Assembly: GCA_001770955.1 (NCBI GenBank)
Contig: MESL01000044.1
Location: 1 to 64,000 of the forward strand
DNA length: 64,000 bases
Source: Burkholderiales bacterium RIFCSPLOWO2_12_FULL_65_40
GTDB lineage: Bacteria > Pseudomonadota > Gammaproteobacteria > Burkholderiales > Burkholderiaceae_C
Reading direction: 5' to 3'
Position 1 is the stretch's first letter. Every line of letters begins with the position of its first letter. Position numbers and translations under genes: made by a program. This document shows positions 2,677-20,216 of this stretch, piece after piece. The notes beneath the pieces were generated by a model. That model was not told the DNA's origin and ran no database searches. It saw only the letters and a program-made list of their open reading frames with translations.

Positions 2677-2737
2677 GGCAGTCCCCTGTGCGTGAATAGT
2701 GGCAGCGCTGCCCGGCCTTGCAGCGCCAAAAATGGCT

Positions 2738-2905
2738 CAGGCCGGTCTTCTGGCTTGGAGTCGTCTGCCTTGGCACACCTTCCCGGCTGGGCAGCCAGTG
2801 GCATTTGTGCGCGGCATCATCCTTACAGCGTTGGGCACGCGGCGGATTTGCACCGCCTTCCCGATTCTCCCGTTGCCATCATGGCATTGGGCACCTGAGG
2901 GCGGG
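2738..2905 (-). promoter_or_regulatory. cobalamin riboswitch upstream of bluB-cobT
   Basis: Read on the minus strand, the leader shows the AdoCbl aptamer landmarks in order: CAGGTGCC, GGGAAGGCGGTGCAAATCC, GCTGTAAGGATG, the B12-box GCCACTGG (complement at 2794-2802), and GGGAAGG followed by CCAAGCCAGAAGACC. It lies between cobQ and bluB and points at bluB. No strong U-tract hairpin follows, so control is probably at translation initiation of bluB. Confidence 0.9.
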
Positions 2906-2934
2906 GATGATAGCAGCCGTGGGCAGCGTGTTTC

Positions 2935-4404
2935 TTACGCGATGAGCGCGTCCAGCACGCCCGGGGCAAAGTGCCGGGCCACGCCGTCGGCCAGGCCGTC
3001 AAACACGGCATCCAGCGTGGGCGCCTGGGCGCCAAACAGGGCGTGCAGCACGGCGGTGTCCTCGAACAGACCGTGCAGGTACACGCCCAGCACGTTGCCC
3101 GCCGGGTTCTGCCAGGCGATGCCCGGCATGACCTCGCGCGCCACGTCGCCCTTGGCGGCCATGGCCGGGTGCTGGGCGGTCTGGCCGTGGTGGATCTCGT
3201 AGCCGCAGGCAGCCACGCCCGAGAGCGGCGCCCAGGCGCCCGCGAGCGGCCCGAAGGCCGCGCTGGTGCGCTGCACGGTCTTGGCGGGCTCGAACACGGT
3301 GACCAGCGGCAGCAGGCCCAGGCCGGGGCCGTTGCCGTCGATGCCCTCGGGGTCGATCAGTGCCTCGCCTAGCATCTGCAGACCGCCGCACACGCCCAGC
3401 ACGGTTCCACCCCGGCCCGCGTGCGCGGCGATGGACTGGTCCAGGCCCTGCGCGCGCAGCCAGGCCAGGTCGGCGGCGGTGGCTTTCGACCCCGGCAGCA
3501 CGATCCAGTCGCTAGGCCGCAGGCCCGCCACGTCGGCCGGGCTGCGCACCCATTGCAGGCGCAGGCCGGGCACGTTCTTGAGCGGCTGGAATTCGTCGAG
3601 GTTGCTGATGCGCGGGTAGGCCACCACGGCCACGGTGGTGTGCACGGCGCCGGGGGTGGTGCTGCGGTCGTCAAACACGCCATCCTCTTCGGGCAGGCCG
3701 TGGTGCCACTGCATGGGAATGGTGGCCACGGTGGGCACGCCGGTGCGCTCCTGCAGGTCCTGGGGCGCGGGCGCGAGCAGGCTAGCGTCGCCCCGGAACT
3801 TGTTGAGCACGAAACCGTGGATCAGCGCACGCTCGTCCTCGGGCAGCAGCGCCCAGGTTCCGTAGAGGTGGGCAAAAGCGCCGCCCCGGTCGATGTCGGT
3901 GACGAGCAGGCAGCGCGCATGGGCATGGCGCGCCACGCGCATGTTCACGATGTCGCTGGCGTGCAGGTTGGTCTCGGCGGGCGAACCCGCACCTTCGATG
4001 ACCACCACGTCGTTCTCGGCACGCAATTGGTCGAGCGCGGCGGCGATCTGCGGCCACACCACGGCGCTGCGGCCGCGCCAGGGCAGCGCCGTGAGCGGCT
4101 CGCTCACCTGCCCCAGCAGCACCACCTGGCTGTGCGTGTCGGCCTCGGGCTTGAGCAAGAGCGGGTTCATGCGCACCCCGGGCACAGCGCGCGCGGCCAG
4201 GGCCTGGAAGTACTGCGCCGATCCGATCTCGCCCCAGGCGCCATCGATGCCTTCGACCACGCGCGCGTTGTTGCTCATGTTCTGCGCCTTGAACGGCGCC
4301 ACCTTCAGGCCCTGGTTGCTGTAGTAGCGGCACAGCGCGGTGGTGAGCCAGCTCTTGCCGGCGCCGCTGGTGGTGCCCAGCACCATGACGCATGCGGCCG
4401 CCAT
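2935..4404 (-). CDS. cobQ: cobyric acid synthase CobQ
   Basis: CobQ amidates the b, d, e and g carboxylates of adenosylcobyrinate a,c-diamide, using glutamine and ATP, to give adenosylcobyrate. It has an N-terminal dethiobiotin-synthetase-like domain with P-loop GTTSGAGKS (residues 10-18) and a C-terminal class I-type glutamine amidotransferase domain with GVCGG (Cys near 337) and the YLHGLFED histidine near 444. ATG 4404 is preferred over 4428 because it follows GGAGGTGG at good spacing and overlaps the queD stop by one base (TGATG). It is the last gene of the long cobalamin operon; length (about 489 residues) is normal. Confidence 0.95.
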   Translation of the reverse strand: MAAACVMVLGTTSGAGKSWLTTALCRYYSNQGLKVAPFKAQNMSNNARVVEGIDGAWGEIGSAQYFQALAARAVPGVRMNPLLLKPEADTHSQVVLLGQVSEPLTALPWRGRSAVVWPQIAAALDQLRAENDVVVIEGAGSPAETNLHASDIVNMRVARHAHARCLLVTDIDRGGAFAHLYGTWALLPEDERALIHGFVLNKFRGDASLLAPAPQDLQERTGVPTVATIPMQWHHGLPEEDGVFDDRSTTPGAVHTTVAVVAYPRISNLDEFQPLKNVPGLRLQWVRSPADVAGLRPSDWIVLPGSKATAADLAWLRAQGLDQSIAAHAGRGGTVLGVCGGLQMLGEALIDPEGIDGNGPGLGLLPLVTVFEPAKTVQRTSAAFGPLAGAWAPLSGVAACGYEIHHGQTAQHPAMAAKGDVAREVMPGIAWQNPAGNVLGVYLHGLFEDTAVLHALFGAQAPTLDAVFDGLADGVARHFAPGVLDALIA

Positions 4405-4847
4405 CAGCCGTCCACCTCCGCCCAGCAATTGGGCGTTTCGTACAGCGTCACCTTGGCCAGCGACAGGTGGCGGCCGAAGCGGTCGTGGTACACATTCTTC
4501 AGGATGTCAAAGGCGGCCTGGGCCAGGTTTTCCACCGTGGGAACACGGTCGATGACCACCGTCTTGTGGCCCGGCATGCTGTCCAGGAAGGCGCGCACGG
4601 CGGTGTCTTTTTCATAGACGATGAAAGCGTGGTCCCACAGGTCCACCAGGTGCGCCTTGGCCAGCGCCTTGATGTCGCCGAAGTCCATGATCATGCCGTT
4701 GTCGGATTCGCCGTCTTTCTGCACCACGTCGCCCGTGAGGGTGATGAGCAGCGTGTAGCGGTGGCCGTGCAGGTTGCGGCACTGGCTGTTGTGGTCGGGA
4801 ATGCGATGCCCGGCATCGAACTCCATTTTTCGGGTAATGGTCAGCAT
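4404..4847 (-). CDS. queD: 6-carboxy-5,6,7,8-tetrahydropterin synthase QueD
   Basis: QueD converts 7,8-dihydroneopterin triphosphate to 6-carboxytetrahydropterin, the first committed step of queuosine precursor synthesis. The protein (147 residues from ATG 4847) starts MLTITRKMEF and has the zinc-binding histidines in DAGHRIP and NLHGHRY, then WDHAF and the PTVEN segment of the 6-pyruvoyltetrahydropterin synthase family. The open frame extends upstream to 4931, but 4847 leaves a clean 20-nt gap after queE and matches family starts. Its stop overlaps the cobQ start, so it sits inside the cobalamin operon, which is not where a queuosine gene is expected. Confidence 0.92.
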   Translation of the reverse strand: MLTITRKMEFDAGHRIPDHNSQCRNLHGHRYTLLITLTGDVVQKDGESDNGMIMDFGDIKALAKAHLVDLWDHAFIVYEKDTAVRAFLDSMPGHKTVVIDRVPTVENLAQAAFDILKNVYHDRFGRHLSLAKVTLYETPNCWAEVDG

Positions 4848-4867
4848 GGGTGGGTCCGTTGTTGCCT

Positions 4868-5538: not shown

Positions 5539-6546
5539 TCACCGCCCGGGGCCATGCACCGCCGCCCGCAAGGCCTCTTGCGCCTCGGGCGCCAGCACGC
5601 CCAGGCGCACCACGCCGGGAAGGCCGAACGAGGCGCAGTCGCGCAGTTTGATGCCCTGCGCCCGCAGGCGGTGCAGCAGCGCAGACAGGTCGGCCACCGG
5701 GGGCCGCGCGCAGAAGTAGTTGGCCTGGCTGCCGGGCAGCACCTCCCAGCCCAGCGCGGCGCACAGCGCCAGCTGGCGCGCCTTCCAGTCGCGCAGCACA
5801 CCCAGGCATTCGGCCAGCCAGTGCTGCACGCGGGGCTGCACCCAGGCCTGCAACAGCGCCACGCCGTGCGCGCCCACGGGCCAGGACGGCGCCAGCGCAA
5901 CAAGGGCTGCCGCATCGGCCTCGCAGCCCTGCGGCGCGATGGCGTAGGCGGCGCGCACGCCCGTCAGGCCCAGGGCCTTGTTGGGGGTCCACAGTTGCCA
6001 GACGCTTCCCAGGCGCCCCGGCGGCGACGCATGGCCTTCGAGGCGCAAGGGGTGGTAGGCGCAGTCGAGCACGCGCAGGGCGTCCTGCCCACTGCCGTCC
6101 AGCAGCCAGGCGGCCAGCGCCGTGTCGCTCCGGCCCAGCGGACTGGAGGGCTCGCAGGCCCATTGCAGCGCGGCACCGGTACCGGGTGCGTGACAGAAGG
6201 CCAGGCCCCAGGCGCGGGCGGCCTGGGCATAGTCGCCATAGCCGTGCGCAGGCACCGCCACGGCGCCTGCACCGCGCCGCACGGCCAGCGCCGTGATGCG
6301 GTGGATGAACTCGCTGGCGCTGCCTGCCAGCACGATGCGTGCGGGCGCCACGCCATGAAACACGGCCAGCTGCGCGCGCAAGGCGGTGTAGGCCGGGTCG
6401 GGATAGCGCGTGGCGTCGGCCTGCTGCACGGCAGCCAGGGCCATGGGGCACGGGCCGCAGGCGTTGCTGTTGGTCGAGAAGTCATGCGGCGCCGCGCCGA
6501 GGCCGTCGGTGCCGCCGTGGCAGGGCATGGCTGCGGCATCAGGCAT
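5539..6546 (-). CDS. cobC: L-threonine-O-3-phosphate decarboxylase (CobC/CobD type)
   Basis: A PLP-dependent class I/II aminotransferase-fold protein of 335 residues. By position and sequence it is the cobalamin-pathway enzyme that decarboxylates threonine phosphate to (R)-1-amino-2-propanol phosphate, the substrate of CbiB (called CobC in Pseudomonas, CobD in Salmonella). Visible features are GTDGLGAAPHDFSTNSN at the N-terminus, the TRYPDPAY substrate segment and the PLP lysine in TPNKALGLTGVR near residue 190. It overlaps the end of cbiB by 8 nt. No threonine kinase (PduX-like) gene is present in the window. The naming ambiguity between systems is the main uncertainty. Confidence 0.88.
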   Translation of the reverse strand: MPDAAAMPCHGGTDGLGAAPHDFSTNSNACGPCPMALAAVQQADATRYPDPAYTALRAQLAVFHGVAPARIVLAGSASEFIHRITALAVRRGAGAVAVPAHGYGDYAQAARAWGLAFCHAPGTGAALQWACEPSSPLGRSDTALAAWLLDGSGQDALRVLDCAYHPLRLEGHASPPGRLGSVWQLWTPNKALGLTGVRAAYAIAPQGCEADAAALVALAPSWPVGAHGVALLQAWVQPRVQHWLAECLGVLRDWKARQLALCAALGWEVLPGSQANYFCARPPVADLSALLHRLRAQGIKLRDCASFGLPGVVRLGVLAPEAQEALRAAVHGPGR

Positions 6547-7624
6547 TCCAGGCCCCTTGAATAGCTACGATAAAAATAGCTGACACCGCAATACCAGAAA
6601 GGGTCCAAGCCACTTTTGAAGCAAATTTTTGCGCCCACCCCACATCCCGTGGCGTGGGCGCCCGCCCCTGCGCATGCAACTGGTACACGCCCGGTTTGGT
6701 GAGCCGCACACCCAGCGCCAGCGCCATGGACGCCATGGGCCAGCCGCTGTTGGGCGACGGGGTCTGGCGTGCCTCGCGCGCCAGGGTGCGCAGCGGCACG
6801 CCGCCGCCCGCCAACGCCAGCAGCAGTGCGGTGATGCGCGCGGGCAGCCACGAGAGCACGTCGTCCGCCCGGGCGGCCCACTTACCTGCCCACTCCCAGT
6901 AGCGGCCTTCGCGCATGCCACGGTAGCCCCACATGGCGTCGGCGGTGTTGGCCAGGCGGTAGAGCGCGGCGCCCGGCAGGCCCGCCACGGCAAACCAGAA
7001 CAGCGGCGCCACCACCGAGTCGTTGAGGTTTTCGGCCAGCGATTCGATGGCGCTCTGGCGCACCTCGTCGGCACTGAGCTGCGCGACGTCGCGGCTCACC
7101 AGCCAGGCCAGGCGCGCACGCCCTTCGTCGAGCGAGCAGGCCAGTGCATCTTCCACCGCGCGCACCTCGCGCAGTAGCAACCGGAATGCAAACAGCGGCT
7201 TGAGCAGCAGGCCCAGCAGCAACGCCGCCAGCACCAGGCGCAGCACACCCACCACGGAAGATGCGCCCTCCAGGCCCATGCCCGGCACATCGACGACCAC
7301 CTCGCACACCTCGGTGGGCGCGCCCCACACATACAACACTGCCGCCTGGAGCAGCGCAGCCACTACCAAAACAATAGCTGCCAGTGCACACCAGCAAAGC
7401 GCTCCAAGCCAAAATAGCTTCAAATCCCGACCGGTGGGCGCTTGCGGCGCGACCCGGCGGCCGCAGGCGCCCAGCGCCCTGCCCATCCACACCACCGGAT
7501 GCCAGCGCGCGGGCGGCTCGCCCCACAGGCGGTCCACCACCAGCGCCACCAGCGCCGCCAGAGCGAGGAAGGCAGCACCCTCGCCGGGGCGGGCGACGAG
7601 CGGGTGCAGCCAGTGCCAATGCAT
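6539..7624 (-). CDS. cbiB: adenosylcobinamide-phosphate synthase CbiB (CobD in Pseudomonas)
   Basis: An integral inner-membrane enzyme that attaches aminopropanol phosphate to adenosylcobyrate. The 361-residue protein has the family segments VDRLWGEPPARWHPVVWMGR, SRDVAQLSADEVRQSAIESLAENLND and ANTADAMWGYR, and four to five hydrophobic helices. Its start codon directly abuts the cobO stop (TGAATG). Two stretches of the coding region (about 7362-7425 and 6555-6625) carry copies of the genome's dispersed AAGCGCTNGCAGCTAT-type repeat, so residues around 68-90 and the C-terminal 25 residues are partly repeat-derived; the reading frame remains open through both. Confidence 0.94.
   Translation of the reverse strand: MHWHWLHPLVARPGEGAAFLALAALVALVVDRLWGEPPARWHPVVWMGRALGACGRRVAPQAPTGRDLKLFWLGALCWCALAAIVLVVAALLQAAVLYVWGAPTEVCEVVVDVPGMGLEGASSVVGVLRLVLAALLLGLLLKPLFAFRLLLREVRAVEDALACSLDEGRARLAWLVSRDVAQLSADEVRQSAIESLAENLNDSVVAPLFWFAVAGLPGAALYRLANTADAMWGYRGMREGRYWEWAGKWAARADDVLSWLPARITALLLALAGGGVPLRTLAREARQTPSPNSGWPMASMALALGVRLTKPGVYQLHAQGRAPTPRDVGWAQKFASKVAWTLSGIAVSAIFIVAIQGAWNA
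7362..7425. repeat. dispersed palindromic repeat inside cbiB
   Basis: The segment holds AATAGCTGCCAGTG and AAAGCGCTCCAAGCC followed by AAAATAGCTTC, matching the two arms of the repeat seen elsewhere in the window (AAGCGCTNGCAGCTAT and its complement). It is translated in frame as a hydrophobic stretch of CbiB. Confidence 0.6.
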
Positions 7625-8194
7625 TCAGTCCTCAATGCCGCGCTGCGCAGGAATGCCCGCTTGGAAAGCGTGCTTGACGAGCTTCATCTCGGTCACCGTA
7701 TCGGCAATGGCGATGATTTCCTCGGGGCAGCGCCGGCCCGTGAGGCACACATGCACGTCCTTGGGGCGCGCGGCCAGGGTGTCGAGCACGTCCTGCAGCG
7801 GCAGCCAGCCGTAGATCAGCGGGTAAGTGATTTCGTCGAGCACCACCAGGAAGCGCTCGCCCCCCAGGATGTCGGCACGCGCTTTCTGCCAGCCGTCGCG
7901 CGCCAGTTGCGCGGAATGCTCCAGGTCTTTGCTCTTCCAGCTGAAGCCGTCGCCCAGGCCCTCGATGGGCAGGCCGATCTGCTCGAACAGGCGGTGCTCG
8001 CCAAAGCGCGCGCTGGGCACCTTCATGAACTGGTAGATCTTCACGGCCTTGCCCCGGCCGTGCGCGCGCAGCGCCAGGCCGAAGGCGGCCGTGCTCTTGC
8101 CCTTGCCGTCGCCGGTGTTCACGATGACGAGGCCCCGGCGTTCGCCCTCGGCCTTCTCGTAGCGTTTTTCGGTGGGAGGGGTTTCGATCTGCAT
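7625..8194 (-). CDS. cobO: cob(I)yrinic acid a,c-diamide adenosyltransferase CobO
   Basis: CobO (CobA/BtuR family) transfers adenosyl from ATP to reduced corrinoid, forming the Co-C bond; it acts in the cytoplasm on both newly made and imported corrinoids. The 189-residue protein has the family P-loop GDGKGKST (residues 28-35), YQFMK, and the LDEITYPLIYGWL segment after the DEx motif; the C-terminus (FQAGIPAQRGIED) is the usual CobO ending. It begins 27 nt after cobN and abuts cbiB. With BtuBCDF in the same operon it gives a complete uptake-and-adenosylation route. Confidence 0.96.
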   Translation of the reverse strand: MQIETPPTEKRYEKAEGERRGLVIVNTGDGKGKSTAAFGLALRAHGRGKAVKIYQFMKVPSARFGEHRLFEQIGLPIEGLGDGFSWKSKDLEHSAQLARDGWQKARADILGGERFLVVLDEITYPLIYGWLPLQDVLDTLAARPKDVHVCLTGRRCPEEIIAIADTVTEMKLVKHAFQAGIPAQRGIED

Positions 8195-8221: not shown

Positions 8222-11200
8222 TCACAGCCCGGCAAGGCCGGGCTGCGCGGACAGGGAAGAAGGCCGGCGCACCTGCCAGGCAGCCCCGGCCAGCGCCACC
8301 AGGGCCATGGCCAGCAGGGCCACGATGTCGGCCATGCGCTGCACGGGCGTGGGCGGGGTGGCGGCGGGGTCGGGCTGGCGTTCCAGCAGCACGCCCAGCG
8401 TGGGCGCGGCGGGTGCGGCGGGCTGCACGGCGGCCTGGGGGGGCGGCGCGGGCAGCCCCGCCGGTGGCGATTGCGGCGTGGCCACGGCCAGGCCGGTGGA
8501 CGCGGGCGCGGCGCCCTGCGCGGCCTGCTCCACCCAGCGGCGCACGCTGGGCAGTTCGGCCGCCAGCGGGGCGGCGCGCGTGAGTTCCTGGTACAGCTGT
8601 GCGAGCTGCTTTTGCGTGTCGGCATCGGTCTGCCAGTAGCCCTGGTGCTGGGCCTGCACCAGGCGCTCCAGCGACTGCGCATAGGCCTGCGGGTGTTCCT
8701 TGAGCCATTCGGGCAGGCCCAGCTGGTGCTTGTCGCGCACCAGCACGTCGTAGAAGCTTTGCCAGTGGTCGCTGCGCACCGTGTCGGGCGCCACGGCCTG
8801 CCAGCCCCAGGCGAACTGCACGGCCTTGAGCACCTGCAGCGTGCCCGAATAGCCCTCGGCCTTCTGCGCCTGCAGCCAGCCCGGGTGCAGGTAGCGCGAC
8901 TGCATCTCCAGCGCAATGGCGCGCTGCGCGGTCTCGGTGGTGGGCTCGCCCGCGTCCTGCAACTGGGCCACATGAAGCTCCAGCCCCTGCGCTCGCCCGG
9001 CCACGCGGGCGGCCGCCGACAGGCCGCCCAGGTACTGGAACGGGTCGTCCGAGCTGACCATGGCATACAGGTGAGAGCTGCGCGACAGGATGGCGGCGTC
9101 GGTGCGGCGCAAATGAGCCGCCAATGCCATGGCGCCCAGCGCCTTCGCCGCCGTTCCGCCCGCCACGCCCGTCACGGGCTCGCCCTCCAGATACGGCTGG
9201 CTCATGCGCTGCAGGAACATCTGGCCCAGGCGCGCATCGTTGGTTTGCAGGCCATCGCTCTGCACCGCGTCCGACAGGCCGGTGCCGTAGTCGCCCACCG
9301 CATTGCCGAACGAGCGCACGCGCGCCAGCTGCTCGGCCTGTGCGCGGGGCACGCCTTGTTTGCGCAGTTCCTGGCCGATCTGCTCGGTGTTGCGCGCAAT
9401 CACGTTGCCGGGCTCGGCCGTGGCGGCCTGGGCCACCGCGCGGTCGAGCAGCGCCATCAGCGCGGGGAACTGGTCGCGGTACGAGCCGGTGATGCTCATG
9501 AGCACATCGACGCGCGGACGTTTCAGCTCGTCAGCGGCGATGGTCTCCACACGCACCGGGCGGCCCGAGTCGTCCCACACCGGGCGCATGCCCAGCGCCA
9601 CGAGGGCCTGGGCTTCCATGATGCCCTGGTGGCGCAGCGTTTCGCCCGCCCACAGCGACAGCGCCATGCGCTGCGGTGCCTGGCCGCCGTGGCGCGCCTG
9701 GTAGTCCTTGAACCAGTCGTTGAACAGCGTCTGCGCCACGGCATAGGCCTGGCGCGTGGGCAGGCGGCTCGGGTCCAGCCCCGTGAGGTTGCGGCCCGTG
9801 GGCAGGCTGTCGGGGTTGCGGATGGGGTCGCCGCCGTAGGCCGCGGGCAGGTAGCGGCCCTCCAACCCCGCCAGCAGGCCGGGCATCTCGCCCTCGGTGG
9901 CCAGCAAGCGCTCCAGCGCCTGCGCGCGCAGTGCCAATTGCAGCAGCGCGGGCGTGGCTATGGGTTGGCGCGCGGCGCGGTTGGGCACATGGTCTTCGGC
10001 GCGCACCACGTCGGATGCCGCCTGCGCGGGCAGCGCGGGGCGCAGGTCCAGCACGCTTGCGGCCTCGGCGTCCACCAGCGCCAGCTCCAGCCAGCGCGCG
10101 GGGCGTGCGGTCCGCACGGTGTCGTGCCGAATGAGAAAGGCTTCGTCGATGTCTTCGCCCAGCGCCTCGATCAGCGACTTGCGCAGCGCCTGCAGGATGG
10201 TCTCGCGTCGCTGCTCGGGCGCGGGTACGCGGCCAAACACGGCCAGGCCCTTGGGCTGCGAGCTTTGCGCGAGCTGGTCCAGGTAGGGGTGCAGGAGTTC
10301 CAGGAAACCCGTGAAGTCGGCAGCGATGCGCGCGGCGCTCCAGCCCAGGTCGCGGTGCAGCTGGTACTCCACGAACTGCGCCACCAGCTGCTTTTCGAGC
10401 GCGCGGCGCGTGGGGCCTTCGTCCACCGTCTCCCACTCGTGCATCACCTCGTGCATGTGGGCCATGCGCGCCTCGAAGCCCGCCGGGGCGAACACGGGCG
10501 TGCGGTGGCTCACCAGCACGGCGCGGCCCCGGCGCTTGGCCGTGAGGGCCTCGCCCAGGTTGTCCACGATGTAGGGGTAGACCACGGGCAGGTCGCCCAG
10601 GGGCAGCAAGGCATCGTCGTACACATCGAGCGCACGCGCCTTGCCGCCCGCCCATTCCTGCGTGCCGTGGGTGCCGAAGTGGATGAGCGCATCGGCCTCC
10701 AGCTGCGCCCACAGGTACACCGCCAGGTAATGGTGCGACAGCGGCGCCTTGGATTTGTGCATGAACGGGTTCTGGCCCAGGCGCAGTGTTTCTTCGCGCG
10801 GGGGCTGGGGCAATACCGAGAGCTTGCCCACCTGCAGGCGCGGGATGGCGAACACTTTTTCGCCCTGCCAATTGACCACGTAGCGGCTCTTTTCGGGCGG
10901 GCCCCAGTGCGCGTTCATGCGCTCGCGCACGGCTTTGGGCAAGGTGGCCAGGTGCTGCTCGTAGCGCGCCAGCGGCAGCGCGGCGGCCTGGCCGTTTTGC
11001 AGCAATGCACGCACATCGGCGCCGGGGTAGTAGGCGGCGAGCAGCGGCTTGAGGCCGTCGATCCAGCCCTGCTCGGGCACCTGCTGCGTGCGGTAACCCG
11101 CCTGGGCCAGGCCGTGCGACACCTGCTCCAGGCTGCGCGGCACGTTGAGGAAGGAGGCGCCGAAGTTGGTGCCGCCCGGCGGGTAGTTGTAGACCATGGC

Positions 11201-12355
11201 CACCAGGCGCTTGTCGGCGGCGGGCTTTGTCTGCAGCGCGATCAGGCGCCGCGCCTTCGCGGCCACGGCCTGGGCCTGGCGGTCGATGAGCCGAAAGTCC
11301 TTGCCCTCGGCGCCGTGGGCGGCGACCAGGATCGGGTCGATGGCGCCGGACGCCTCGGGCTGGGCCAGGTAGAACGGCACGTCGGACAGCGAGAGCCCCG
11401 TGTCGCTCGCCTCCCACGCGGCGGCATCGCCCGCGCGGTAGGGCTGCGTGCCCAGCAGCGGCACGCCCCAGCGCGCCAGCAGCGGCTGCAGCGCGGCGGC
11501 CTGGGGCACGAGCTGGTGCAGCACCAGGGCCGACGCATGCAGGCGGCCCGGGCCGGTGCCACTGGCGGGGGGCAACTCCAGCACCTCGGCCAGCGTCTGC
11601 GCCGTGACCTGCTGGCCAAAGGCGGCGTAGGCGAACAGGCCCTGCTGCTGGAAGACGCGCAGCCAGTCATCGAGCCAGGCCGTGCTGCCGTCGACGAAAT
11701 GGTGGCGGTGCACCAGCACGGCCACGGCGGGCAGGCCGCGCAAGGCGCCCTGCCCTGCGCGCCACCGCTCAAGCGCCATGGCGTTCGGTAGCAGGCCGGG
11801 AGCTTCGGGATGGTAGAGGCCGCGCACGGGCAGGATCTCGGGCGCAGGCAAGGCCGGCAGGGGCGCGCCGGCCACGGTGGCGTGCGCCAGGGCCATGGCG
11901 TGCCGCAGGTTGCGCCGCCCGCCCGCCTGCAGGTAGGCCACCATGCGCGCCGAGGCATCAAGCGCCGCCAGATCGGCCGCCGGGGCGCCGGCCGGCACCC
12001 AGACCACGCGACCGGGCGTGCGCGCGGCGCGCGCATCAAGCTGCGGCCCCGCCATGCGGCGCAGGCGGGCCTCGACGCTGGCGTGCGGCGCATCCACCCA
12101 CACCAGCGCGGCGCTGGCCAGGGCCTGCTGAAGCCTCTGGGCCTGCGTCGCATCGAGCATTGCCGGGCCGCCCAGCGGGTAGTCGATGTGCTCGAAGCCC
12201 AGGCCGGCATCCGCCGCGAGGCGCTGCACCATGGCGGTACGCGGCGCGGTGGTGATGTCCGAGGTGAGCCACAGCAGCCCCGGCGCGGCCTGTGCCCATG
12301 GGGCGGCCAGCACCAGCAGGCACCCCAGTGCCAGGGCCCGGACGATTCGGGTCAT
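8222..12355 (-). CDS. cobN: CobN/HmuS-family chelatase subunit, predicted periplasmic and membrane-anchored
   Basis: A 1377-residue protein of the CobN/BchH family (large subunit of cobalto-/magnesium chelatases). Unlike classical cytoplasmic CobN it starts with a clear Sec signal peptide: a basic MTRIVR, a hydrophobic core and an AQA cleavage site near residue 24. After the chelatase domain comes a Pro/Ala-rich linker (about 1270-1325), one hydrophobic helix (about 1333-1353) and a basic tail (VRRPSS). The chelatase body should thus face the periplasm, anchored at the C-terminus. It overlaps the DUF2149 gene by 4 nt (ATGA) and follows an ExbB-like gene; CobS/CobT AAA+ and vWA partners are absent here. 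From family knowledge, CobN-like HmuS of Bacteroidetes heme loci has similar neighbours. The exact reaction (metal insertion, removal or corrinoid handling) is unknown. Confidence 0.85.
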   Translation of the reverse strand: MTRIVRALALGCLLVLAAPWAQAAPGLLWLTSDITTAPRTAMVQRLAADAGLGFEHIDYPLGGPAMLDATQAQRLQQALASAALVWVDAPHASVEARLRRMAGPQLDARAARTPGRVVWVPAGAPAADLAALDASARMVAYLQAGGRRNLRHAMALAHATVAGAPLPALPAPEILPVRGLYHPEAPGLLPNAMALERWRAGQGALRGLPAVAVLVHRHHFVDGSTAWLDDWLRVFQQQGLFAYAAFGQQVTAQTLAEVLELPPASGTGPGRLHASALVLHQLVPQAAALQPLLARWGVPLLGTQPYRAGDAAAWEASDTGLSLSDVPFYLAQPEASGAIDPILVAAHGAEGKDFRLIDRQAQAVAAKARRLIALQTKPAADKRLVAMVYNYPPGGTNFGASFLNVPRSLEQVSHGLAQAGYRTQQVPEQGWIDGLKPLLAAYYPGADVRALLQNGQAAALPLARYEQHLATLPKAVRERMNAHWGPPEKSRYVVNWQGEKVFAIPRLQVGKLSVLPQPPREETLRLGQNPFMHKSKAPLSHHYLAVYLWAQLEADALIHFGTHGTQEWAGGKARALDVYDDALLPLGDLPVVYPYIVDNLGEALTAKRRGRAVLVSHRTPVFAPAGFEARMAHMHEVMHEWETVDEGPTRRALEKQLVAQFVEYQLHRDLGWSAARIAADFTGFLELLHPYLDQLAQSSQPKGLAVFGRVPAPEQRRETILQALRKSLIEALGEDIDEAFLIRHDTVRTARPARWLELALVDAEAASVLDLRPALPAQAASDVVRAEDHVPNRAARQPIATPALLQLALRAQALERLLATEGEMPGLLAGLEGRYLPAAYGGDPIRNPDSLPTGRNLTGLDPSRLPTRQAYAVAQTLFNDWFKDYQARHGGQAPQRMALSLWAGETLRHQGIMEAQALVALGMRPVWDDSGRPVRVETIAADELKRPRVDVLMSITGSYRDQFPALMALLDRAVAQAATAEPGNVIARNTEQIGQELRKQGVPRAQAEQLARVRSFGNAVGDYGTGLSDAVQSDGLQTNDARLGQMFLQRMSQPYLEGEPVTGVAGGTAAKALGAMALAAHLRRTDAAILSRSSHLYAMVSSDDPFQYLGGLSAAARVAGRAQGLELHVAQLQDAGEPTTETAQRAIALEMQSRYLHPGWLQAQKAEGYSGTLQVLKAVQFAWGWQAVAPDTVRSDHWQSFYDVLVRDKHQLGLPEWLKEHPQAYAQSLERLVQAQHQGYWQTDADTQKQLAQLYQELTRAAPLAAELPSVRRWVEQAAQGAAPASTGLAVATPQSPPAGLPAPPPQAAVQPAAPAAPTLGVLLERQPDPAATPPTPVQRMADIVALLAMALVALAGAAWQVRRPSSLSAQPGLAGL

Positions 12356-12726
12356 GGCGTGGGTTCGGCGGGGCCGCCGGCGCCGCTGCGCACCGCGCCC
12401 GGCACGCCCCCCCCTTCGGGGATGTAGACGATGTTGCCGTCTTCGAGCCGGTAGGCCACGCCCGCGCGCACGCCCTGCCCCTGGGCGGCGCTACCGGCGC
12501 CCTTGAAGCGCACCTCGCGCCCCTGCTCGCGCACGACGACTTCCATGTCGGGCTGGCCCGCGTTGCGGATGATGGTGACGCTGTCGTTGCCGCTGGCCTG
12601 CGTCTGCACCACCACGGCGGTCAGCAGGGCGACGACGAGCACGAGGAACACGTCCACCAGGTTGATAGCCGAGAGCATGGGATCGTCGTCATCCTCGGCC
12701 AGGATGCTCAGGTGGCGCAAACTCAT
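12352..12726 (-). CDS. DUF2149 protein, ExbD/TolR-like single-pass membrane protein
   Basis: A 124-residue protein starting at ATG 12726. After an acidic N-terminus (EDDDD, residues 11-15) it has one hydrophobic helix, residues 21-41, beginning INLVDVFLVLVVALLTA; the remainder is a soluble, probably periplasmic domain ending in a Gly/Pro-rich tail. The helix closely resembles that of ExbD in this same window (TPLVDVMLVLLIIFIIT), including the aspartate (Asp25 here) that forms the proton path in ExbD/TolR. It overlaps the ExbB-like gene upstream and cobN downstream by 4 nt each. I infer it is the ExbD-like half of a stator serving the periplasmic CobN. Confidence 0.8.
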   Translation of the reverse strand: MSLRHLSILAEDDDDPMLSAINLVDVFLVLVVALLTAVVVQTQASGNDSVTIIRNAGQPDMEVVVREQGREVRFKGAGSAAQGQGVRAGVAYRLEDGNIVYIPEGGGVPGAVRSGAGGPAEPTP

Positions 12727-13196
12727 TGCGCCACCCCACGCTCCTTGCGCACGGCGAGCAGTTCGGCCAGCAGCCAGCGGCGGCGCACCGAGTACACCAC
12801 CAGCCCCACCGATGCAGCCGCCAGCGCCAGCACCACACCCGCGAAGGCGCCGCTGAACACCGCCAGCGCTTGCTGGCCATTGCCGGCCGCCACGTTCTGC
12901 AGCGCCGGGCCGAGCGGAATCATGGTGGCGATCAGCCCCAGCATGGGCGACAGGCGGCTGAGCAGGCGCACCGGCTCCACCTGGCGCACCAATTGCAGCT
13001 CCAGCTCCTCGATCGAGAGCCCGGGCGCCACGCGCAGCGAACGATAGCGCGGGCTGCGCCAGCGCTGCCAGGCCTCCATCAGCGTCGCGCCGCCGGCCCA
13101 GAGTGCGTACACAAAAGCCAGCCCCACGAGCACCAGCACGGGCAGCAGCAGCAATTGCGCAACCTGCGAAAAACCTGTTTCCAGAACCATGTTCAT
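12723..13196 (-). CDS. MotA/TolQ/ExbB-like proton channel protein
   Basis: A 157-residue inner-membrane protein from ATG 13196 (13190 is a second possible start). Three hydrophobic segments are visible: about residues 10-32, 84-102 (SPMLGLIATMIPLGPAL) and 117-140 (GAFAGVVLALAAASVGLVVY). This is the compact TolQ/ExbB layout, with the conserved proline and small-residue helices that line the proton channel. It overlaps btuD by 4 nt (ATGA) and the DUF2149 gene by 4 nt. It is distinct from the classical exbB at 33767, which pairs with tonB. It probably forms a dedicated stator with the DUF2149 protein. Confidence 0.82.
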   Translation of the reverse strand: MNMVLETGFSQVAQLLLLPVLVLVGLAFVYALWAGGATLMEAWQRWRSPRYRSLRVAPGLSIEELELQLVRQVEPVRLLSRLSPMLGLIATMIPLGPALQNVAAGNGQQALAVFSGAFAGVVLALAAASVGLVVYSVRRRWLLAELLAVRKERGVAQ

Positions 13197-13999
13197 TCCT
13201 TTTCTTCGATGGCGTGCGGCACCAGCCGGGGCAGCGCCAGCCACTGGCCCGCCACGCCGTGGATGGCGATGCGCTGGTCGAACACCTGCTCCAGCGCGCG
13301 GTGCGTGGCCACATCCCGGGCCGCGCCGTGGTGGCGCAGGCACCCCTGGGCGACGATGGCCACGTCGTCGGCCTGCAGCGCCATCGACAGCTCATGCAGC
13401 ACGCTGACCACGGTGCGGCCGTGCGCCACGAGCTCGCGCACCAGCAGCAGCCAGTCGGCCTGGTGCGGCGGGTCGAGGTTGGCCAGGGGCTCGTCCATCA
13501 GCAGCACGCCCGCCTGCACGGCCAGCGCGCGTGCCAGCAACACGCGCTGGCGCTCGCCGCCCGAGAGCTGGCCGAGCGCGCGCGCGCGCCACTCCCAGGC
13601 CTGGGTGGCGCGCAGCGCCTGCTCGACGGCGGCGTGGTCCTGCGGGCTGGCGGGCTGCATCCAGCCCTGGTGCGGCAGGCGGCCGAGCATGGCCACGTCG
13701 TACACGGTCAGGTCGTCGGCGGCGGCCTCGTTCTGCCCGAGCCAGGACAGTTGCAAGGCACGCTCGCGCCGGGGCCAGGCGTGCAGCGCGCGCCCATGCA
13801 GCAGCACCTGCCCGCTGCTGGCCGGCATAAGGCCCGCCAGCACCTTGAGCAGCGTGGACTTGCCTGCGCCGTTGGGGCCGACGATGCTGGTCCAGCGGCC
13901 CGCCGCGAGCGGCAGGGTCACACTGTGCAGTATGGGGTGTTTTCCGATTCCAGCGCTTATGAAACAAGCGCTGACAGCTATGTTTTCAGGAGCAGTCAC
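13193..13999 (-). CDS. btuD: cobalamin ABC transporter ATP-binding protein BtuD
   Basis: The ATPase of the B12 importer (FecCD/BtuCD type). The 268-residue protein shows Walker A GPNGAGKST (residues 41-49), the LSGGERQR signature, Walker B VLLMDEP with ANLD, and the H-loop LHELS. I place the start at GTG 13999, because it overlaps the btuC stop as GTGA, the pattern used throughout this operon, with a G-rich ribosome-binding site just upstream; an ATG at 14038 is possible. Residues about 5-20 are encoded by a dispersed-repeat copy (13946-13985). BtuC, BtuF and BtuB are encoded upstream in the same operon. Confidence 0.92.
   Translation of the reverse strand: MTAPENIAVSACFISAGIGKHPILHSVTLPLAAGRWTSIVGPNGAGKSTLLKVLAGLMPASSGQVLLHGRALHAWPRRERALQLSWLGQNEAAADDLTVYDVAMLGRLPHQGWMQPASPQDHAAVEQALRATQAWEWRARALGQLSGGERQRVLLARALAVQAGVLLMDEPLANLDPPHQADWLLLVRELVAHGRTVVSVLHELSMALQADDVAIVAQGCLRHHGAARDVATHRALEQVFDQRIAIHGVAGQWLALPRLVPHAIEEKE
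13946..13985. repeat. dispersed palindromic repeat at the btuD 5' end
   Basis: The plus strand contains CCAGCGCTTATGAAACAAGCGCTGACAGC (in two arms: CCAGCGCTTA and AAGCGCTGACAGCTATG). It matches the repeat family at 33008, 37545 and 52442 and is translated as the N-terminus of BtuD. Confidence 0.65.
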
Positions 14000-15093
14000 A
14001 ACAGCCCCCCGGGCGCCGTTCGCCGGTGCATCAGCCACAGCAGGTAGCCGCCGCCAAGCACAGCGGTGAGCACGCCCACGGGCAGCTCCTGCGGCGCCAT
14101 GAGGCCGCGCGCCAGCAGGTCGGCGCCGGCCAGCAGGGCCGCGCCCATGAAGCTGGCCAGCAGCATCAGGCGGCCGTGGCGCACGCTGACGATGGCGCGC
14201 ACCAGGTGCGGCGCGGCCAGGCCGACAAAAGCGATAAGCCCGGTCTGCGCCACGGCGGTGCCGGTGGCCAGCGCCAACACCACCACCAGCGCGGCGCGCA
14301 GCGGCGCGAGCCGCAGGCCCAGGCTCAGCGCCGTGGATTCACCCAGCGCCAGCCCGTCGAGCACGCGCGCCAGCAGCCAGGCCGCCGCCAGGCACAGCAG
14401 CCACACGGCCAGCATGAGCAGGCAGGCCGTCCAGCCCACGAAGCCCGTGGAGCCGAGCAGAAAGGCCTGCATGGCCTGCAGCGAGTCGGGCGACATCAGC
14501 AAAATCAGCGAAGTGAATGCGCCCAGCACCACGCCCACCACCACGCCCGCCAGCAGCAGGCGCAGCGTGTGCTGCACGCCGCGCGCCAGTGCCAGCGTGA
14601 GCAGCACCGCCAGCACGGCGCCCACGAAAGCCGCACCCGTGAGCCCCAGGCGCACCAGCCAGTGGCTGGAATAGACCGACACGGCCATGGCCGCGCTGGC
14701 CCCGCCCACCATGCCCGCGCCGCCGCCCATGAGCGCCAGCACGGTGGCCACGCCCAGCGAGGCGCCCGAGGCGCTGCCCAGCAGGTACGGGTCGGCCAGC
14801 GGGTTGCGAAACAGCCCCTGGGCCACGGCGCCGGCCAGCCCCAGCAGCGCGCCGGCGGCCCAGGCACCGATGGTGCGCGGCAGGCGGATGTCCCACACAA
14901 TCTGCAGCGCCATGGCGTGCGCCGCAGGGTCGGCCTGCGCATCCATCAGCGCGGGCCAGAGGTTCTCCAGCCCCATGCTGCCCACGCCGGTGCCCAGCAA
15001 CACCAGCGCCACGCCCGCCAGCGCCAGGCCCACAGCCAGCCAGAGGCCGCAGGCCCCCTGCCGCACCGGTGGTGAAGACACGGCAGCCTTCAT
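13996..15093 (-). CDS. btuC: cobalamin ABC transporter permease BtuC
   Basis: An inner-membrane permease of the FecCD family that passes B12 from BtuF to the cytoplasm. The 365-residue protein from ATG 15093 has about ten hydrophobic helices and the family segments RLPRTIGAWAAGALLGLAGAVAQG, NPLADPYLLGSASGAS and GLIAFVGLAAPHLVR, the last being the cytoplasmic coupling loop that contacts BtuD. The start overlaps the btuF stop by 4 nt. The downstream btuD start overlaps the stop of this gene. Confidence 0.93.
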   Translation of the reverse strand: MKAAVSSPPVRQGACGLWLAVGLALAGVALVLLGTGVGSMGLENLWPALMDAQADPAAHAMALQIVWDIRLPRTIGAWAAGALLGLAGAVAQGLFRNPLADPYLLGSASGASLGVATVLALMGGGAGMVGGASAAMAVSVYSSHWLVRLGLTGAAFVGAVLAVLLTLALARGVQHTLRLLLAGVVVGVVLGAFTSLILLMSPDSLQAMQAFLLGSTGFVGWTACLLMLAVWLLCLAAAWLLARVLDGLALGESTALSLGLRLAPLRAALVVVLALATGTAVAQTGLIAFVGLAAPHLVRAIVSVRHGRLMLLASFMGAALLAGADLLARGLMAPQELPVGVLTAVLGGGYLLWLMHRRTAPGGLL

Positions 15094-15998
15094 GATCGCG
15101 CGCCCTGGCCGGCCGTCTTTTCGGCCAGGCAGGCCGCCATGAGGCGCGCGGCCTCGGCCATGCGCGGGCCGGGGCGGATCAGTACGTCGGACTGTTCGGG
15201 CGAGAAGACGCACAGGCGCTGCTCGCGCAGCGCGCGCATGCTCGCCCAGCCCGGGCGCGCGGCCAGGCCCTCGGCGCTGCGCGCGCCGACCATGATGAGG
15301 TCGGGGTTGGCGCGCACCACGAATTCGGGGTTGAGCTTGGGGAACGGCCCCAGCGTGGCGGGCAGGATGTTGCGGGCGCCCAGGCGCGCCAGCGTCTCGC
15401 CGATGAAGGAGCCCGGCCCGGCGCCATACGGCCCGGGGTTGACCTCGAAATACACGCGCGCACCGCGTGCGGCCGGGGGCAGCGACTGCGCAGCGGCCTG
15501 CACGCCCGCGTCGGTGGCGCGCCAGACGCGCTGCGCGTCCTGCACGCCCAGCAGCTGGCCCACCTTGCCGAGCACGCGTTGCATGTCGGCATGGGTCTTG
15601 GGCTCCAACGCCACCACGGCAATGCCCAGGGCTTCGAGCCGCGCCGCCGCGCGCGAGGAGGTGGCCATGAGCACCACGTCGGGCCGCAGCGCGACGACGG
15701 CTTCAATGTTCGGGTCCAGCCCACCGCCCACCTGGGGCAGTTTGCGCACGCTTTCGGGCCAGTTGGTGTAGCGGTCCACGCCGACGAGGCGCTGGCATTC
15801 ACCCAGCGCGCACACGGTTTCGGCCAGCGAGGGCAGCAGGCTGACGATGCGCTGCGGCGTGCGCGCCAACGCAACGGCGCGGCCCCGGTCGTCGGTAAGC
15901 TGCACGCCCTGCGCCTGCGCGGTGCCGAACATGAGCAACAGCAGCGCCAGCAGCACCGCCACCACGATCAGAATGCGCTTGATGGGGGTGGGTTTCAT
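15090..15998 (-). CDS. btuF: cobalamin ABC transporter substrate-binding protein BtuF
   Basis: The periplasmic corrinoid-binding protein that delivers B12 to BtuCD. The 302-residue protein from ATG 15998 begins with a signal peptide (basic KPTPIKR, a long leucine core, TAQAQ cleavage near residue 30). The BtuF/FecB fold follows: RTPQRIVSLLPSLAETVCALG, VGVDRYTNWPESV and LRPDVVLMATS. The start overlaps the cobU stop by 4 nt and its own stop overlaps btuC. The substrate is most likely cobalamin, given BtuB, the riboswitch and the cobalamin biosynthetic neighbours. Confidence 0.92.
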   Translation of the reverse strand: MKPTPIKRILIVVAVLLALLLLMFGTAQAQGVQLTDDRGRAVALARTPQRIVSLLPSLAETVCALGECQRLVGVDRYTNWPESVRKLPQVGGGLDPNIEAVVALRPDVVLMATSSRAAARLEALGIAVVALEPKTHADMQRVLGKVGQLLGVQDAQRVWRATDAGVQAAAQSLPPAARGARVYFEVNPGPYGAGPGSFIGETLARLGARNILPATLGPFPKLNPEFVVRANPDLIMVGARSAEGLAARPGWASMRALREQRLCVFSPEQSDVLIRPGPRMAEAARLMAACLAEKTAGQGARS

Positions 15999-16591
15999 CC
16001 AGTCTCTTTCAATGTGAGCGGCAACCCGGCCGCCATCAGCGTGACGCGCTCGCACGCCTGCGCTACCTGCTGGTTGAGCAGGCCCAGCGCATCGACAAAG
16101 GCGCGCACCTCGCGCCCCAGCGGAATCACTCCCAGGCCGATTTCGTTGCCCACCAGAACCACGGGGCCGGGGGCCTGCTCAAGTGCTATAAAAAAAAGAG
16201 CTGCTTGCGCTTGCCAGTTGTGCGCCAGAGCCTCTTTTTGTTCAAAATCCATGGCCTCCTGCCCGGCGGGCATGGTCCAGTTCGTGAGCCACAGCGTCAG
16301 GCAGTCCACCACCAGCAGGGTACCCGGCTGGCTGTGGCGGGTGATGGCACCGGCCAGGTCACGCGGTTCTTCCAGCGTGGCCAGGCCCGGCACGCGCTCG
16401 GCACGGTCGCGCTGGTGGCGGGCGATGCGCGCGCGCATTTCGTCGTCCCAGGGCTCGGCGGTGGCCATGAGCAGCGCGCGGTGCGAGGGCGAACGCGCCA
16501 GCCAGTCGCGCGCGAGCAGCTCGGCGCGGCGCGACTTGCCGCTTTTCTGCCCGCCCAGGATGAGTTCGCTGCGCGCAATGCGGGCGTTCAT
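15995..16591 (-). CDS. cobU: adenosylcobinamide kinase / adenosylcobinamide-phosphate guanylyltransferase CobU
   Basis: CobU (CobP) phosphorylates adenosylcobinamide and then transfers GMP to give adenosylcobinamide-GDP. The 198-residue protein from ATG 16591 has P-loop GGQKSGKS (13-20), IARHQRDR with the probable guanylylated histidine at 59, DCLTLWLTN, and VGNEIGLGVIPLGREVRAF near the C-terminus. Both ends use 4-nt overlaps (with cobB and btuF). A stretch of about 15-18 residues before VVLVGNE is encoded by a dispersed-repeat copy (16180-16232); this is the variable loop of the family, so function is probably kept. Confidence 0.94.
   Translation of the reverse strand: MNARIARSELILGGQKSGKSRRAELLARDWLARSPSHRALLMATAEPWDDEMRARIARHQRDRAERVPGLATLEEPRDLAGAITRHSQPGTLLVVDCLTLWLTNWTMPAGQEAMDFEQKEALAHNWQAQAALFFIALEQAPGPVVLVGNEIGLGVIPLGREVRAFVDALGLLNQQVAQACERVTLMAAGLPLTLKETG
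16180..16232. repeat. dispersed palindromic repeat inside cobU
   Basis: AAGTGCTATAAAAAAAAGAG and AGCTGCTTGCGCTTGCCAG are recognisable arms of the window's repeat family (complement GGCAAGCGCAAGCAGCTC). It is in frame within cobU. Confidence 0.6.
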
Positions 16592-17937
16592 GCGCCCTCC
16601 CCGCCCAGCAGGTGCGCCACGGCGCGGGGGCTGGAAGCGAACCATGCATGGAAGTAGCTGGCGTGCAGGCTGCCCTGCCGGTACAGCGACTCGCCCCCAT
16701 CGGGCGCGCTGGCTTCGCCAGGGCGGCTGCTGCGCGCGATGACCGGCGCACCGCTGACCAGCGTGGAGTAATGAAACGTGTGGCCGCGCAGCACCTCGCC
16801 CGCCACAGGCAACTGCTGCGGCCCCAGCGCGGCCAGGCGTTGGTGCAGCGTGGCCTGGCCGGGCAGCAGGCCCCACAAAGGCTGCACCGCCCCATCGCGC
16901 AATTGCACCGCTTCGCACAGCGCCACCATGCCGCCACACTCGGCCCACAGCGGCAGGCCGGCCTCCAGGTGGCGTTGCAGGTCAGCGCGCAGGCCGGTGT
17001 TGGCGGCAATCTGCGCGGCATGCAGCTCGGGGTAGCCGCCAGGCAGCCACACGGCATCGCAGGGCGGCAAGCGGTCGCCATCCAGCGGCGAGAAGAAGCT
17101 GACGCGCGCGCCGAGCTGCTCCAGCGTCTGCAGGTTGGCGGCGTAGATGAAGCTGAAGGCCGCATCGCGCGCCACGGCCACGCTGCGGCCGGCCAGCAGC
17201 GGCGGCACGGCCTCCGAAGCCTCCGGCGCGGCAAAGTCCACGGCCCAGCGTTGCAGGTCGGAAGCGCTCATCTGCCCCAGCGGTGTGGCGGCCAGCGCGT
17301 CAGCGGCGGCGTCCAGGCGCAGCAGGGCATCACCCAGTTCATGCGCGGCCACCAGGCCCAGGTGGCGCTCGGGCAGCAATGCAGCGCCGCCTTCGCCCAA
17401 TGACACGCGCGCCAGCGCACCCAGCCAGTCCTGCGGGTCGCGCAGGCCGGCCTGCAACATCCCGGCATGGCGTGGGCTGCCCACGCGGTTGGCCAGCACC
17501 CCGGCCCAGGGCAAGCCGGGCCGGTAGTCGCGCAGCCCATGGGCCAGCGCGCCAAAGGTGCCCGCCATGGCCGAGGCATCGACCACAGCCAGCACCGGAA
17601 CGCCGAAGCGCTGGGCCAGGTCGGCGGCGCTCGGGTCGCCGTCGAACAGGCCCATCACGCCCTCGATGAGGATCAGATCCGCCTCACACGCGGCGTCGTG
17701 CAGGCGCCGGGCGCAGTCGGGCGCGCCATTGATCCACAGGTCCAGCGAGTGCACCGGTGCGCCGCTGGCAAGCTGGTGCCAGTGGGGGTCGAGAAAGTCC
17801 GGCCCGCACTTGAACACGCGCACACGCCGGCCCTGACGGACATGCAGCCGCGCCAGCGCGGCCGTCACCGTGGTCTTGCCCTGGCCCGAGGCCGGGGCAG
17901 CCACCAGCAAGGCGGGGCAGGATGCGTGCGTGGACAT
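16588..17937 (-). CDS. cobB: cobyrinic acid a,c-diamide synthase CobB (CbiA)
   Basis: CobB amidates the a and c side chains of (hydrogeno)cobyrinate, using glutamine and ATP. It has an N-terminal P-loop domain (APASGQGKTT, residues 14-23; CGPDFLDPHWH) and a C-terminal glutamine amidotransferase domain with AECGGM (Cys near 334) and the GHTFHYS histidine region. ATG 17937 is preferred, giving 449 residues and an 8-nt gap after btuB; ATG 17961 would overlap btuB. It overlaps cobU by 4 nt. Its presence with CobQ suggests that corrin-ring genes exist elsewhere in the genome, because none lie in this window. Confidence 0.94.
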   Translation of the reverse strand: MSTHASCPALLVAAPASGQGKTTVTAALARLHVRQGRRVRVFKCGPDFLDPHWHQLASGAPVHSLDLWINGAPDCARRLHDAACEADLILIEGVMGLFDGDPSAADLAQRFGVPVLAVVDASAMAGTFGALAHGLRDYRPGLPWAGVLANRVGSPRHAGMLQAGLRDPQDWLGALARVSLGEGGAALLPERHLGLVAAHELGDALLRLDAAADALAATPLGQMSASDLQRWAVDFAAPEASEAVPPLLAGRSVAVARDAAFSFIYAANLQTLEQLGARVSFFSPLDGDRLPPCDAVWLPGGYPELHAAQIAANTGLRADLQRHLEAGLPLWAECGGMVALCEAVQLRDGAVQPLWGLLPGQATLHQRLAALGPQQLPVAGEVLRGHTFHYSTLVSGAPVIARSSRPGEASAPDGGESLYRQGSLHASYFHAWFASSPRAVAHLLGGEGA

Positions 17938-17945
17938 GGCGGGGC

Positions 17946-19859: not shown

Positions 19860-19918
19860 GGAAATCAGTGTCAGCAAACAACCCGCGCCGGCTTCCCCGC
19901 CAGCAAATAGGTGATACG

Positions 19919-19948
19919 GCCGTGCCCGCCATCCAAGGCGCGCACGGC
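19919..19948 (-). promoter_or_regulatory. GC-rich hairpin between riboswitch and btuB
   Basis: Arms 19919-19930 and 19937-19948 form a 12-bp stem with one mismatch and a 6-nt loop (GCCGTGC...GCACGGC). No U-tract follows, so it is not a standard terminator. It lies between the aptamer and the btuB start and may be part of the expression platform. Confidence 0.5.
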
Positions 19949-19954
19949 CACCGT

Positions 19955-20130: not shown

Positions 20131-20216
20131 ACTGCGGCATGTGAACCACACCGCGAGCACCAACAACGAGGATTTTACGGCGCTTTGCAATGCAACTGCC
20201 TACAATCTGTGGCTCT

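Follow-up and report, generated by a model that had tools for sequence, protein, structure and literature searches.

The best-studied relative of the system described here is HmuS of the Bacteroidota hmu loci, a membrane-bound heme dechelatase, dependent on NADH (reduced nicotinamide adenine dinucleotide), that takes iron from heme; its His538 is essential, and its tetrapyrrole site lies between head and neck (as described in PMC12583661). A comparable arrangement is found in the window analyzed here, the whole 64,000-nucleotide stretch at positions 1 to 64,000 of contig MESL01000044.1 from Burkholderiales bacterium RIFCSPLOWO2_12_FULL_65_40 (assembly GCA_001770955.1). In this window, an operon under a cobalamin (B12) riboswitch encodes CobN, a large enzyme of the metal-inserting kind. 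It appears to be exported and anchored in the membrane, beside its own proton-channel-like pair of small proteins. The arrangement hints at a putative energy source for metal handling beyond the cytoplasm while B12 is being scavenged. As in the locus of HmuS, HmuU and HmuV, a periplasmic CobN-like protein with membrane helices has ExbB-like and DUF2149 neighbors and a TonB receptor, and the catalytic histidine is kept. However, hmu is an iron/heme regulon with HmuY, HmuR and HmuT, whereas this operon combines a B12 riboswitch with genes for BtuB and BtuFCD and with late cob genes.

Other relatives have also been reported. In 2003, Rodionov put forward a BtuS family with a role in metalloporphyrin salvage (as cited in PMC6460266), and its members, such as BtuS1 and BtuS2 of Bacteroides fragilis and one in Methanosarcina barkeri, form a third CobN type that, like the protein here, is predicted to be exported and membrane-anchored; in the available portions of PMC6460266 and PMC10846266, neither a proton-driven role nor a cobalamin function is shown for it. 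An hmu-like operon of B. fragilis is also under a cobalamin riboswitch, but differs in having two HmuR copies and no HmuY; its function is suggested, and no corrinoid finishing genes are mentioned in the available part of PMC10100974. In Pseudomonas aeruginosa, PA1922-PA1925 form one operon comprising a TonB receptor, a CobN-like gene, an ExbD-annotated gene and a hypothetical gene, but it is controlled by Zur and has no B12 genes (PMC4542158). These precedents bear on the claim of the original prediction that no such role had been described for cobalamin loci of betaproteobacteria. A literature search, with most subscription journals outside it, found no proton-driven or B12-serving periplasmic cobaltochelatase and no description of the system in beta-proteobacteria; the suggestion of no precedent should nonetheless be narrowed, given BtuS in 2003 and the riboswitch-controlled hmu-like operons of B. 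fragilis (PMC6460266 and PMC10100974, as far as the available text of each goes).

The architecture of the system and its pairing, as read from sequence, are very probably as set out below. The central features are as follows.

19941..20179, minus strand: cobalamin riboswitch before btuB (Rfam RF00174, 82.4 bits)
12723..13196, minus strand: ExbB/TolQ-like protein, 157 residues, three helices (homologue alignment, AlphaFold model, Foldseek)
12352..12726, minus strand: DUF2149 protein with an ExbD/TolR-like layout, one helix with Asp25 and then a small beta part (PF09919, 79.5 bits)
8222..12355, minus strand: CobN-family chelatase, 1377 residues (PF02514, 857 bits; NF004644, 1470 bits; both above cut-off)
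12284..12355, minus strand: Sec-like signal of CobN, residues 1-24 (hydropathy)
10667..10669, minus strand: codon of CobN His563, aligned with HmuS His538 (alignment)
8333..8584, minus strand: Pro/Ala-rich linker of CobN, about residues 1258-1341 (composition)
8282..8335, minus strand: predicted membrane helix at the C-terminus of CobN, roughly residues 1341-1358, then a basic tail (hydropathy)

The order on the minus strand is riboswitch, btuB, cbiA, cobU, btuF, btuC, btuD, ExbB-like, DUF2149, cobN, btuR, cbiB, aminotransferase and cobQ. ATGA overlaps of 4 nucleotides at 13196-13193, 12726-12723 and 12355-12352 join btuD, the ExbB-like gene, the DUF2149 gene and cobN.

The N-terminus of CobN is hydrophobic and ends in AQA-A, signal peptides having been assessed from hydropathy alone. 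Its C-terminal helix has a mean hydropathy of 2.26 and is followed by the basic tail. Such a helix is absent in 30 of 30 control chelatases (L135-L164, presumably of CobN and BchH types; maximum hydropathy 1.04). A sequence motif in this helix was considered as a general feature and set aside, being present in 41 of 51 window-type but 8 of 21 non-B12-type sequences. The window type comprises 69 loci, namely the window, 67 of 80 named loci and L131; in 51 sequences of this type the linker has a median length of 86 residues and is 19% proline, versus 6.6% in the body, and the linker of the non-B12 type is 17% proline. The class I chelatase body carries an HFGTHG motif, and His563 is invariant in all 69 window-type sequences and across the five groups compared. 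The alignment with HmuS began after residue 283, with the heme ligands Met79 and His254 outside it. Unlike the HmuS cleft, with Ser1014 and His1209, the window CobN has Ala903 and Asp1104.

The ExbB-like protein taken alone scores 18.7 bits against PF01618, under the Pfam cut-off of 22.9, while all 38 aligned homologues match that family at E values up to 1 (best 8e-14). Its AlphaFold model has a pLDDT (predicted local distance difference test) score of 96.4, and the first 43 PDB matches of the model in Foldseek are all ExbB/TolQ chains (best E value 0.08, which is weak; probability 1.00; template modeling score 0.56). Thr91, in the second helix, is invariant in 38 of 38 homologues. The model thus points to a three-helix ExbB/TolQ stator fold with a threonine in its second helix. 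The DUF2149 protein has the single helix with an aspartate that is expected of ExbD/TolR, and Asp25 is found in 43 of 43 aligned sequences (43 of the 60 listed) and in 11 further distant ones.

Pairing was tabulated in 300 Burkholderiales genomes and 398 Pseudomonadota genomes, with nearness defined as lying within 5 kilobases (kb) of a PF02514 match. In the Burkholderiales, PF09919 occurs in 22 of 300 genomes, and 21 of 22 rows over the cut-off are near PF02514, the exception being genome G058. In the Pseudomonadota it occurs in 17 of 398 genomes, and all 19 of its 19 rows lie close to CobN, as judged from coordinates for 15 and from the gene context for 4; five DUF2149 rows are common to both samples. 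PF02514 itself, unsorted by export signal or pair, is present in 68 of the 300 Burkholderiales and 134 of the 398 Pseudomonadota genomes. The adjacency of DUF2149 and CobN exceeds chance. Both partners are present in 99 of 113 CobN loci scanned, in 10 more the contig ends at the place expected for the pair, and the pair was not seen in four: L109 (1.7 kb seen) and L062, L087 and L089 (long flanks). Gene order varies among loci, yet CobN and the pair remain together. Genome G269 was wrongly counted as pairless: both partners are present, and PF09919 misses distant pairs. G195 is cut at a contig end. In L095, from a metagenome-assembled genome (MAG), two separate matches stand for each of CobN, CbiB and CobQ, perhaps because of broken frames or sequencing error.

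Much of the original prediction is borne out by these data. It had read a Sec signal and a C-terminal helix on CobN, 4-nucleotide overlaps from btuD to cobN, a B12 riboswitch operon (running here from btuB to btuR), an ExbB-like/DUF2149 pair and a kinship with HmuS; each is recovered, the last in the equivalence of His563 and His538 and in the shared neighbors. Its envelope location for CobN is likewise predicted by hydropathy, which does not describe a soluble cytoplasmic protein.

It might be argued that the pair simply energizes TonB and BtuB, with CobN as a bystander, since HmuU/HmuV (PMC10100974 and PMC12583661, in the parts available) and PA1924 (PMC4542158) are described as TonB energizers. 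This is highly unlikely, as DUF2149 accompanies CobN in nearly all cases. The same genome also encodes a second exported CobN machine (C34; locus L005, 6951-15817), in which CobN, an ExbB-like protein and DUF2149 lie beside a TonB receptor and no riboswitch was found by Rfam; PA1922-PA1925 resembles this type by gene order alone. In addition to the pair, C34 has neighboring genes that we take to be ExbB-, ExbD- and TonB-like, which argues against the pair being simply a TonB energizer. Methanosarcina acetivorans, an archaeon with no outer membrane, matches both families as well.

The remaining genes of the operon, and a second riboswitch, are as follows.

17946..19877, minus strand: btuB-like outer-membrane B12 receptor (TIGR01779, 454 bits, under the equivalog cut-off of 599.7)
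16588..17961, minus strand: cbiA/cobB a,c-diamide synthase (NF002204, 393 bits, above cut-off)
15995..16948, minus strand: cobU/cobP (NF004469, 153 bits, slightly below the cut-off of 161; the true start is probably further in)
15090..16055, minus strand: btuF-like binding protein (PF01497)
13996..15213, minus strand: btuC-like permease (PF01032)
13193..14038, minus strand: btuD-like ATPase (PF00005), overlapping the ExbB-like gene by 4 nucleotides
7625..8194, minus strand: btuR/cobA adenosyltransferase (TIGR00708, above cut-off)
6539..7624, minus strand: cbiB (TIGR00380, above cut-off)
5539..6546, minus strand: presumed CobC/CobD-like aminotransferase, named from its sequence by recall
2935..4428, minus strand: cobQ cobyric acid synthase (NF001989, above cut-off)
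2723..2913, minus strand: second cobalamin riboswitch (Rfam), which precedes bluB and a dimethylbenzimidazole phosphoribosyltransferase gene (cobT)

Two genes at 4404-5300, which we take to be QueD- and QueE-like, separate the aminotransferase gene from cobQ within the cob operon. A TolQ-like gene is present elsewhere in the window (33767-34486; TIGR02796, 155 bits, below the cut-off of 221). The 22 best matching loci belong to Acidovorax and its kin, and their CobN proteins are 86-91% identical in the best segment.

Other B12 genes are present in 55 of the 69 window-type loci; 13 of the other 14 have an upstream riboswitch motif, and L086 is cut there. All 11 window-type loci tested with Rfam have a riboswitch. 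In the non-B12 type, riboswitches were found in 0 of 26 loci by motif and 0 of 21 by Rfam (17 of these 21 being among the 26), counts that hold one copy twice, as a single contig underlies both L108 and L125. The motif scan missed the riboswitch of L186, and its negatives are thus unsafe without Rfam. In L084 (9938-14749 and on), a B12-type and a non-B12-type CobN machine adjoin on opposite strands. Upstream of CobN, CbiA or BtuD lies no more than 2.5 kb away in 47 of 63 cases (CbiA in 20); on the downstream side, BtuR is as close in 40 of 62. In the late pathway, cobalt insertion is flanked by steps that homologues of CbiA and BtuR catalyze. A Cupriavidus operon makes adenosylcobalamin from cobyrinic acid (according to PMC2864759). 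The statement, in the available part of PMC13227078, that CobN genes sit in operons without Hmu homologues does not fit the loci described here.

In a FastTree phylogeny of 76 sequences, with B12 and non-B12 labels assigned from gene context and riboswitch, there is a B12-linked clade of 30 that includes the window, and a distant B12-linked clade of 7. The idea that B12-linked forms are exactly these two clades is wrong: Rfam riboswitches lie near L115 and L186, which fall outside both. In L115 (5289-12956) and L186 (4064-14095), distant CobN machines are preceded by a cobalamin riboswitch and a TonB receptor gene, and the btu/cob operon is absent. In the relabeled tree, with L115 and L186 included, 4 changes account for the B12 label across 39 rows, versus a shuffled mean of 25.8; the B12 link is therefore old or repeated and no chance of a single operon. 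The relabeling makes the link wider and the argument from Ala903 weaker, and it leaves the probabilities of the several readings unchanged. Ala903, a position chosen from a scan over all alignment columns, is found in both main B12-linked clades (69/69 and 7/7), with serine in 31 of 31 non-B12-type sequences; as a mark of B12 it is rejected, the riboswitch-linked L115 having serine. Asp1104 was considered as a corrin/porphyrin switch and rejected, occurring in 69 of 69 window-type but also 25 of 31 non-B12 sequences. Asp971 is common to the B12-linked forms and to cytosolic CobN (9/9), and was rejected as a marker because Synechocystis ChlH carries it too in the alignment.

The window genome has an early-insertion set consisting of a riboswitch, CbiM, CobM, CbiX, CbiC, CbiD, CbiL, CbiG, CbiH and CobA, and the view of this organism as a salvager without a de novo pathway is wrong. 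Since cobalt is inserted early, the CobN step is not needed for its own synthesis. The CbiX of this set (L010, 9245-10135) has a His-rich tail, and its operon starts with the riboswitch and CbiM. In keeping with the absence of CobT noted in the original prediction, CobT (PF06213) was not found in this genome, which is 93.9% complete, with a Caulobacter control positive. AAA_5, the profile used in looking for CobS, has 19 matches in the genome; the two that were read (L011 and L012) are presumably MoxR-like. That this is a normal CobN of B12 biosynthesis, serving the route with late insertion, is suggested by the name of the best model, "cobaltochelatase subunit CobN" (NF004644). Given the export signal and membrane helix, the absence of a CobT match, the early insertion via CbiX and CbiD and a tree that sets exported forms apart from cytosolic CobN (support 100), that identity is extremely improbable.

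CbiD was found in 4 of 28 bearer genomes and not found in 24 of 28, a set that includes several MAGs and in which completeness is known for ten; many bearers thus probably salvage corrins. In nine CbiD-less genomes searched with PF02514, eight appear, among the matches listed, to have exported CobN only, while G659 also has the cytosolic type. The eight would be salvagers that still carry the cbiA and btuR steps.

The reading that we consider best, although it falls somewhat short of an even chance, is a stator-driven class I chelatase of the periplasm and inner membrane, acting on scavenged corrinoids at the cobalt step. The pair would act as a stator powered by protons, exerting force on the helix and tether of CobN as ExbB-ExbD do on TonB. 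It would replace the ATP (adenosine triphosphate)-driven CobST/ChlID motor, since such a motor could not work outside the cytoplasm. The substrate would be a corrinoid that arrived via BtuB. In the reaction, either cobalt would be inserted into a metal-free corrin obtained by scavenging or the metal would be corrected; the cobalt would come from a metal-binding protein of the periplasm, which in sister operons is ZrgA-like. The product would then be imported by BtuFCD and finished by CbiA, BtuR, CobQ, CbiB and CobU. Proton drive seems to us evenly balanced between true and false, and the cobalt-insertion role is somewhat doubtful; both are inferred, as are the substrate and the direction of the reaction.

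CobN could instead bind the corrinoid for an energized hand-off, with the pair driving transfer from BtuB to BtuF and no metal chemistry. E. coli BtuB and BtuFCD function without such a machine, and His563 would have little reason to be invariant in all 69 window-type sequences, nor would a metal-binding ZrgA be expected in 11 loci. The hand-off is accordingly rather unlikely, despite the position beside btuFCD, the TonB-like tether and the tetrapyrrole site between the head and neck of HmuS (PMC12583661, in the part available).

The ZrgA-family protein is encoded between the B12 riboswitch and the CobN machine in those 11 loci, from Azonexus, Parazoarcus, Azoarcus, Thauera, Caldimonas, Rhodocyclaceae and betaproteobacterial MAGs. 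The six scanned proteins match PF10986 at 90-106 bits, and the rest match a profile built from these six. The riboswitch was found by Rfam in L064, L066, L083, L084 and L091 and by motif in the others. In L087, ZrgA directly precedes CobN: the locus (9151-13935) has the riboswitch motif, the ZrgA-like gene and CobN, with the pair not between them. ZrgA serves zinc uptake in Vibrio (according to PMC9817125), and its homologue PA4063 binds zinc or cobalt (according to PMC11481552).

These proteins are also relevant to a model of cobalt acquisition, in which CobN would strip metal from a periplasmic chelate in the manner of HmuS, and ZrgA and importers would bring the cobalt to B12 synthesis. Relatives do serve metal supply, HmuS with iron from heme (PMC12583661, in the part available) and PA1922-PA1925 under Zur (PMC4542158), and a B12 riboswitch precedes the CbiM cobalt permease gene in the window genome. 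However, the window type sits amid corrinoid uptake and finishing genes, and the 24 of 28 bearers in which CbiD was not found may need little free cobalt. The removal of cobalt from a corrin is, moreover, chemically very hard. Cobalt acquisition is on balance unlikely.

Several observations weigh against stator-driven cobalt insertion. CbiA and BtuR are cytoplasmic and CobN is not; the window genome makes B12 by early cobalt insertion; and the window operon has no ZrgA. Neither Asp971 nor Asp1104 is a clean corrin/porphyrin marker, and Ala903 was picked from an all-column scan and is broken by L115. The linker is only 9-11% proline in the distant groups. The model of DUF2149 is weak (pLDDT 71; predicted template modeling score 0.33), its periplasmic part has no ExbD match in Foldseek, and a PDB profile search with DUF2149 gave chance-like matches alone. 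In L062, L089 and L087, CobN is retained but no pair adjoins it. In L062 (9995-14143) and L089 (8964-13505), CobN is 68% identical, versus 82-97% for other operon genes (cbiB and cobD 69-79%), and both genomes hold other DUF2149 genes elsewhere; from these sequences, gene replacement is possible in this pairless B12 operon. Conversely, G058 (L130) has the pair, and a PF02514 search of its genome found no CobN. Finally, HmuS, the best-studied relative, removes metal, and in vitro it needs NADH but not the pair for activity (PMC12583661, in the part available).

In its full form, the proposal is of a class I chelatase driven by the proton-motive force, with an ExbB/ExbD-type stator in place of an AAA+ motor and a TonB-like tether, inserting cobalt in the periplasm into metal-free corrins that corrin-ring auxotrophs take from neighbors and finish into B12. 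In all its parts together, this is unlikely. If it is true, stator pairs drive an enzyme besides transport and motility, class I chelatases gain a second energy source and B12 cross-feeding extends to trade in unfinished, cobalt-free corrins. HmuU/HmuV and DUF2149 would also acquire a role as partners that can be tested; in the available parts of the sources they are TonB energizers or have no known role.

Relatives of the machine are already known in HmuS, BtuS, PA1922-PA1925 and the Bacteroides hmu-like operons; a proton-driven chelatase would be new. CobN belongs to the same chelatase family as the class I enzymes CobNST and ChlHID/BchHID, but those are cytoplasmic, driven with ATP by AAA+ partners and devoid of an export signal, tether or stator. 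With ExbB-ExbD-TonB and TolQ-TolR-TolA it shares a stator pair with a helix aspartate and threonine, and an effector on one helix and a Pro-rich linker, which is how TonB itself is tethered. Unlike TonB and TolA, the effector here has the form of an enzyme, with the helix at the C-terminus and not at the N-terminus. By our own analogy, the layout of CobN may be likened to that of TonB turned round.

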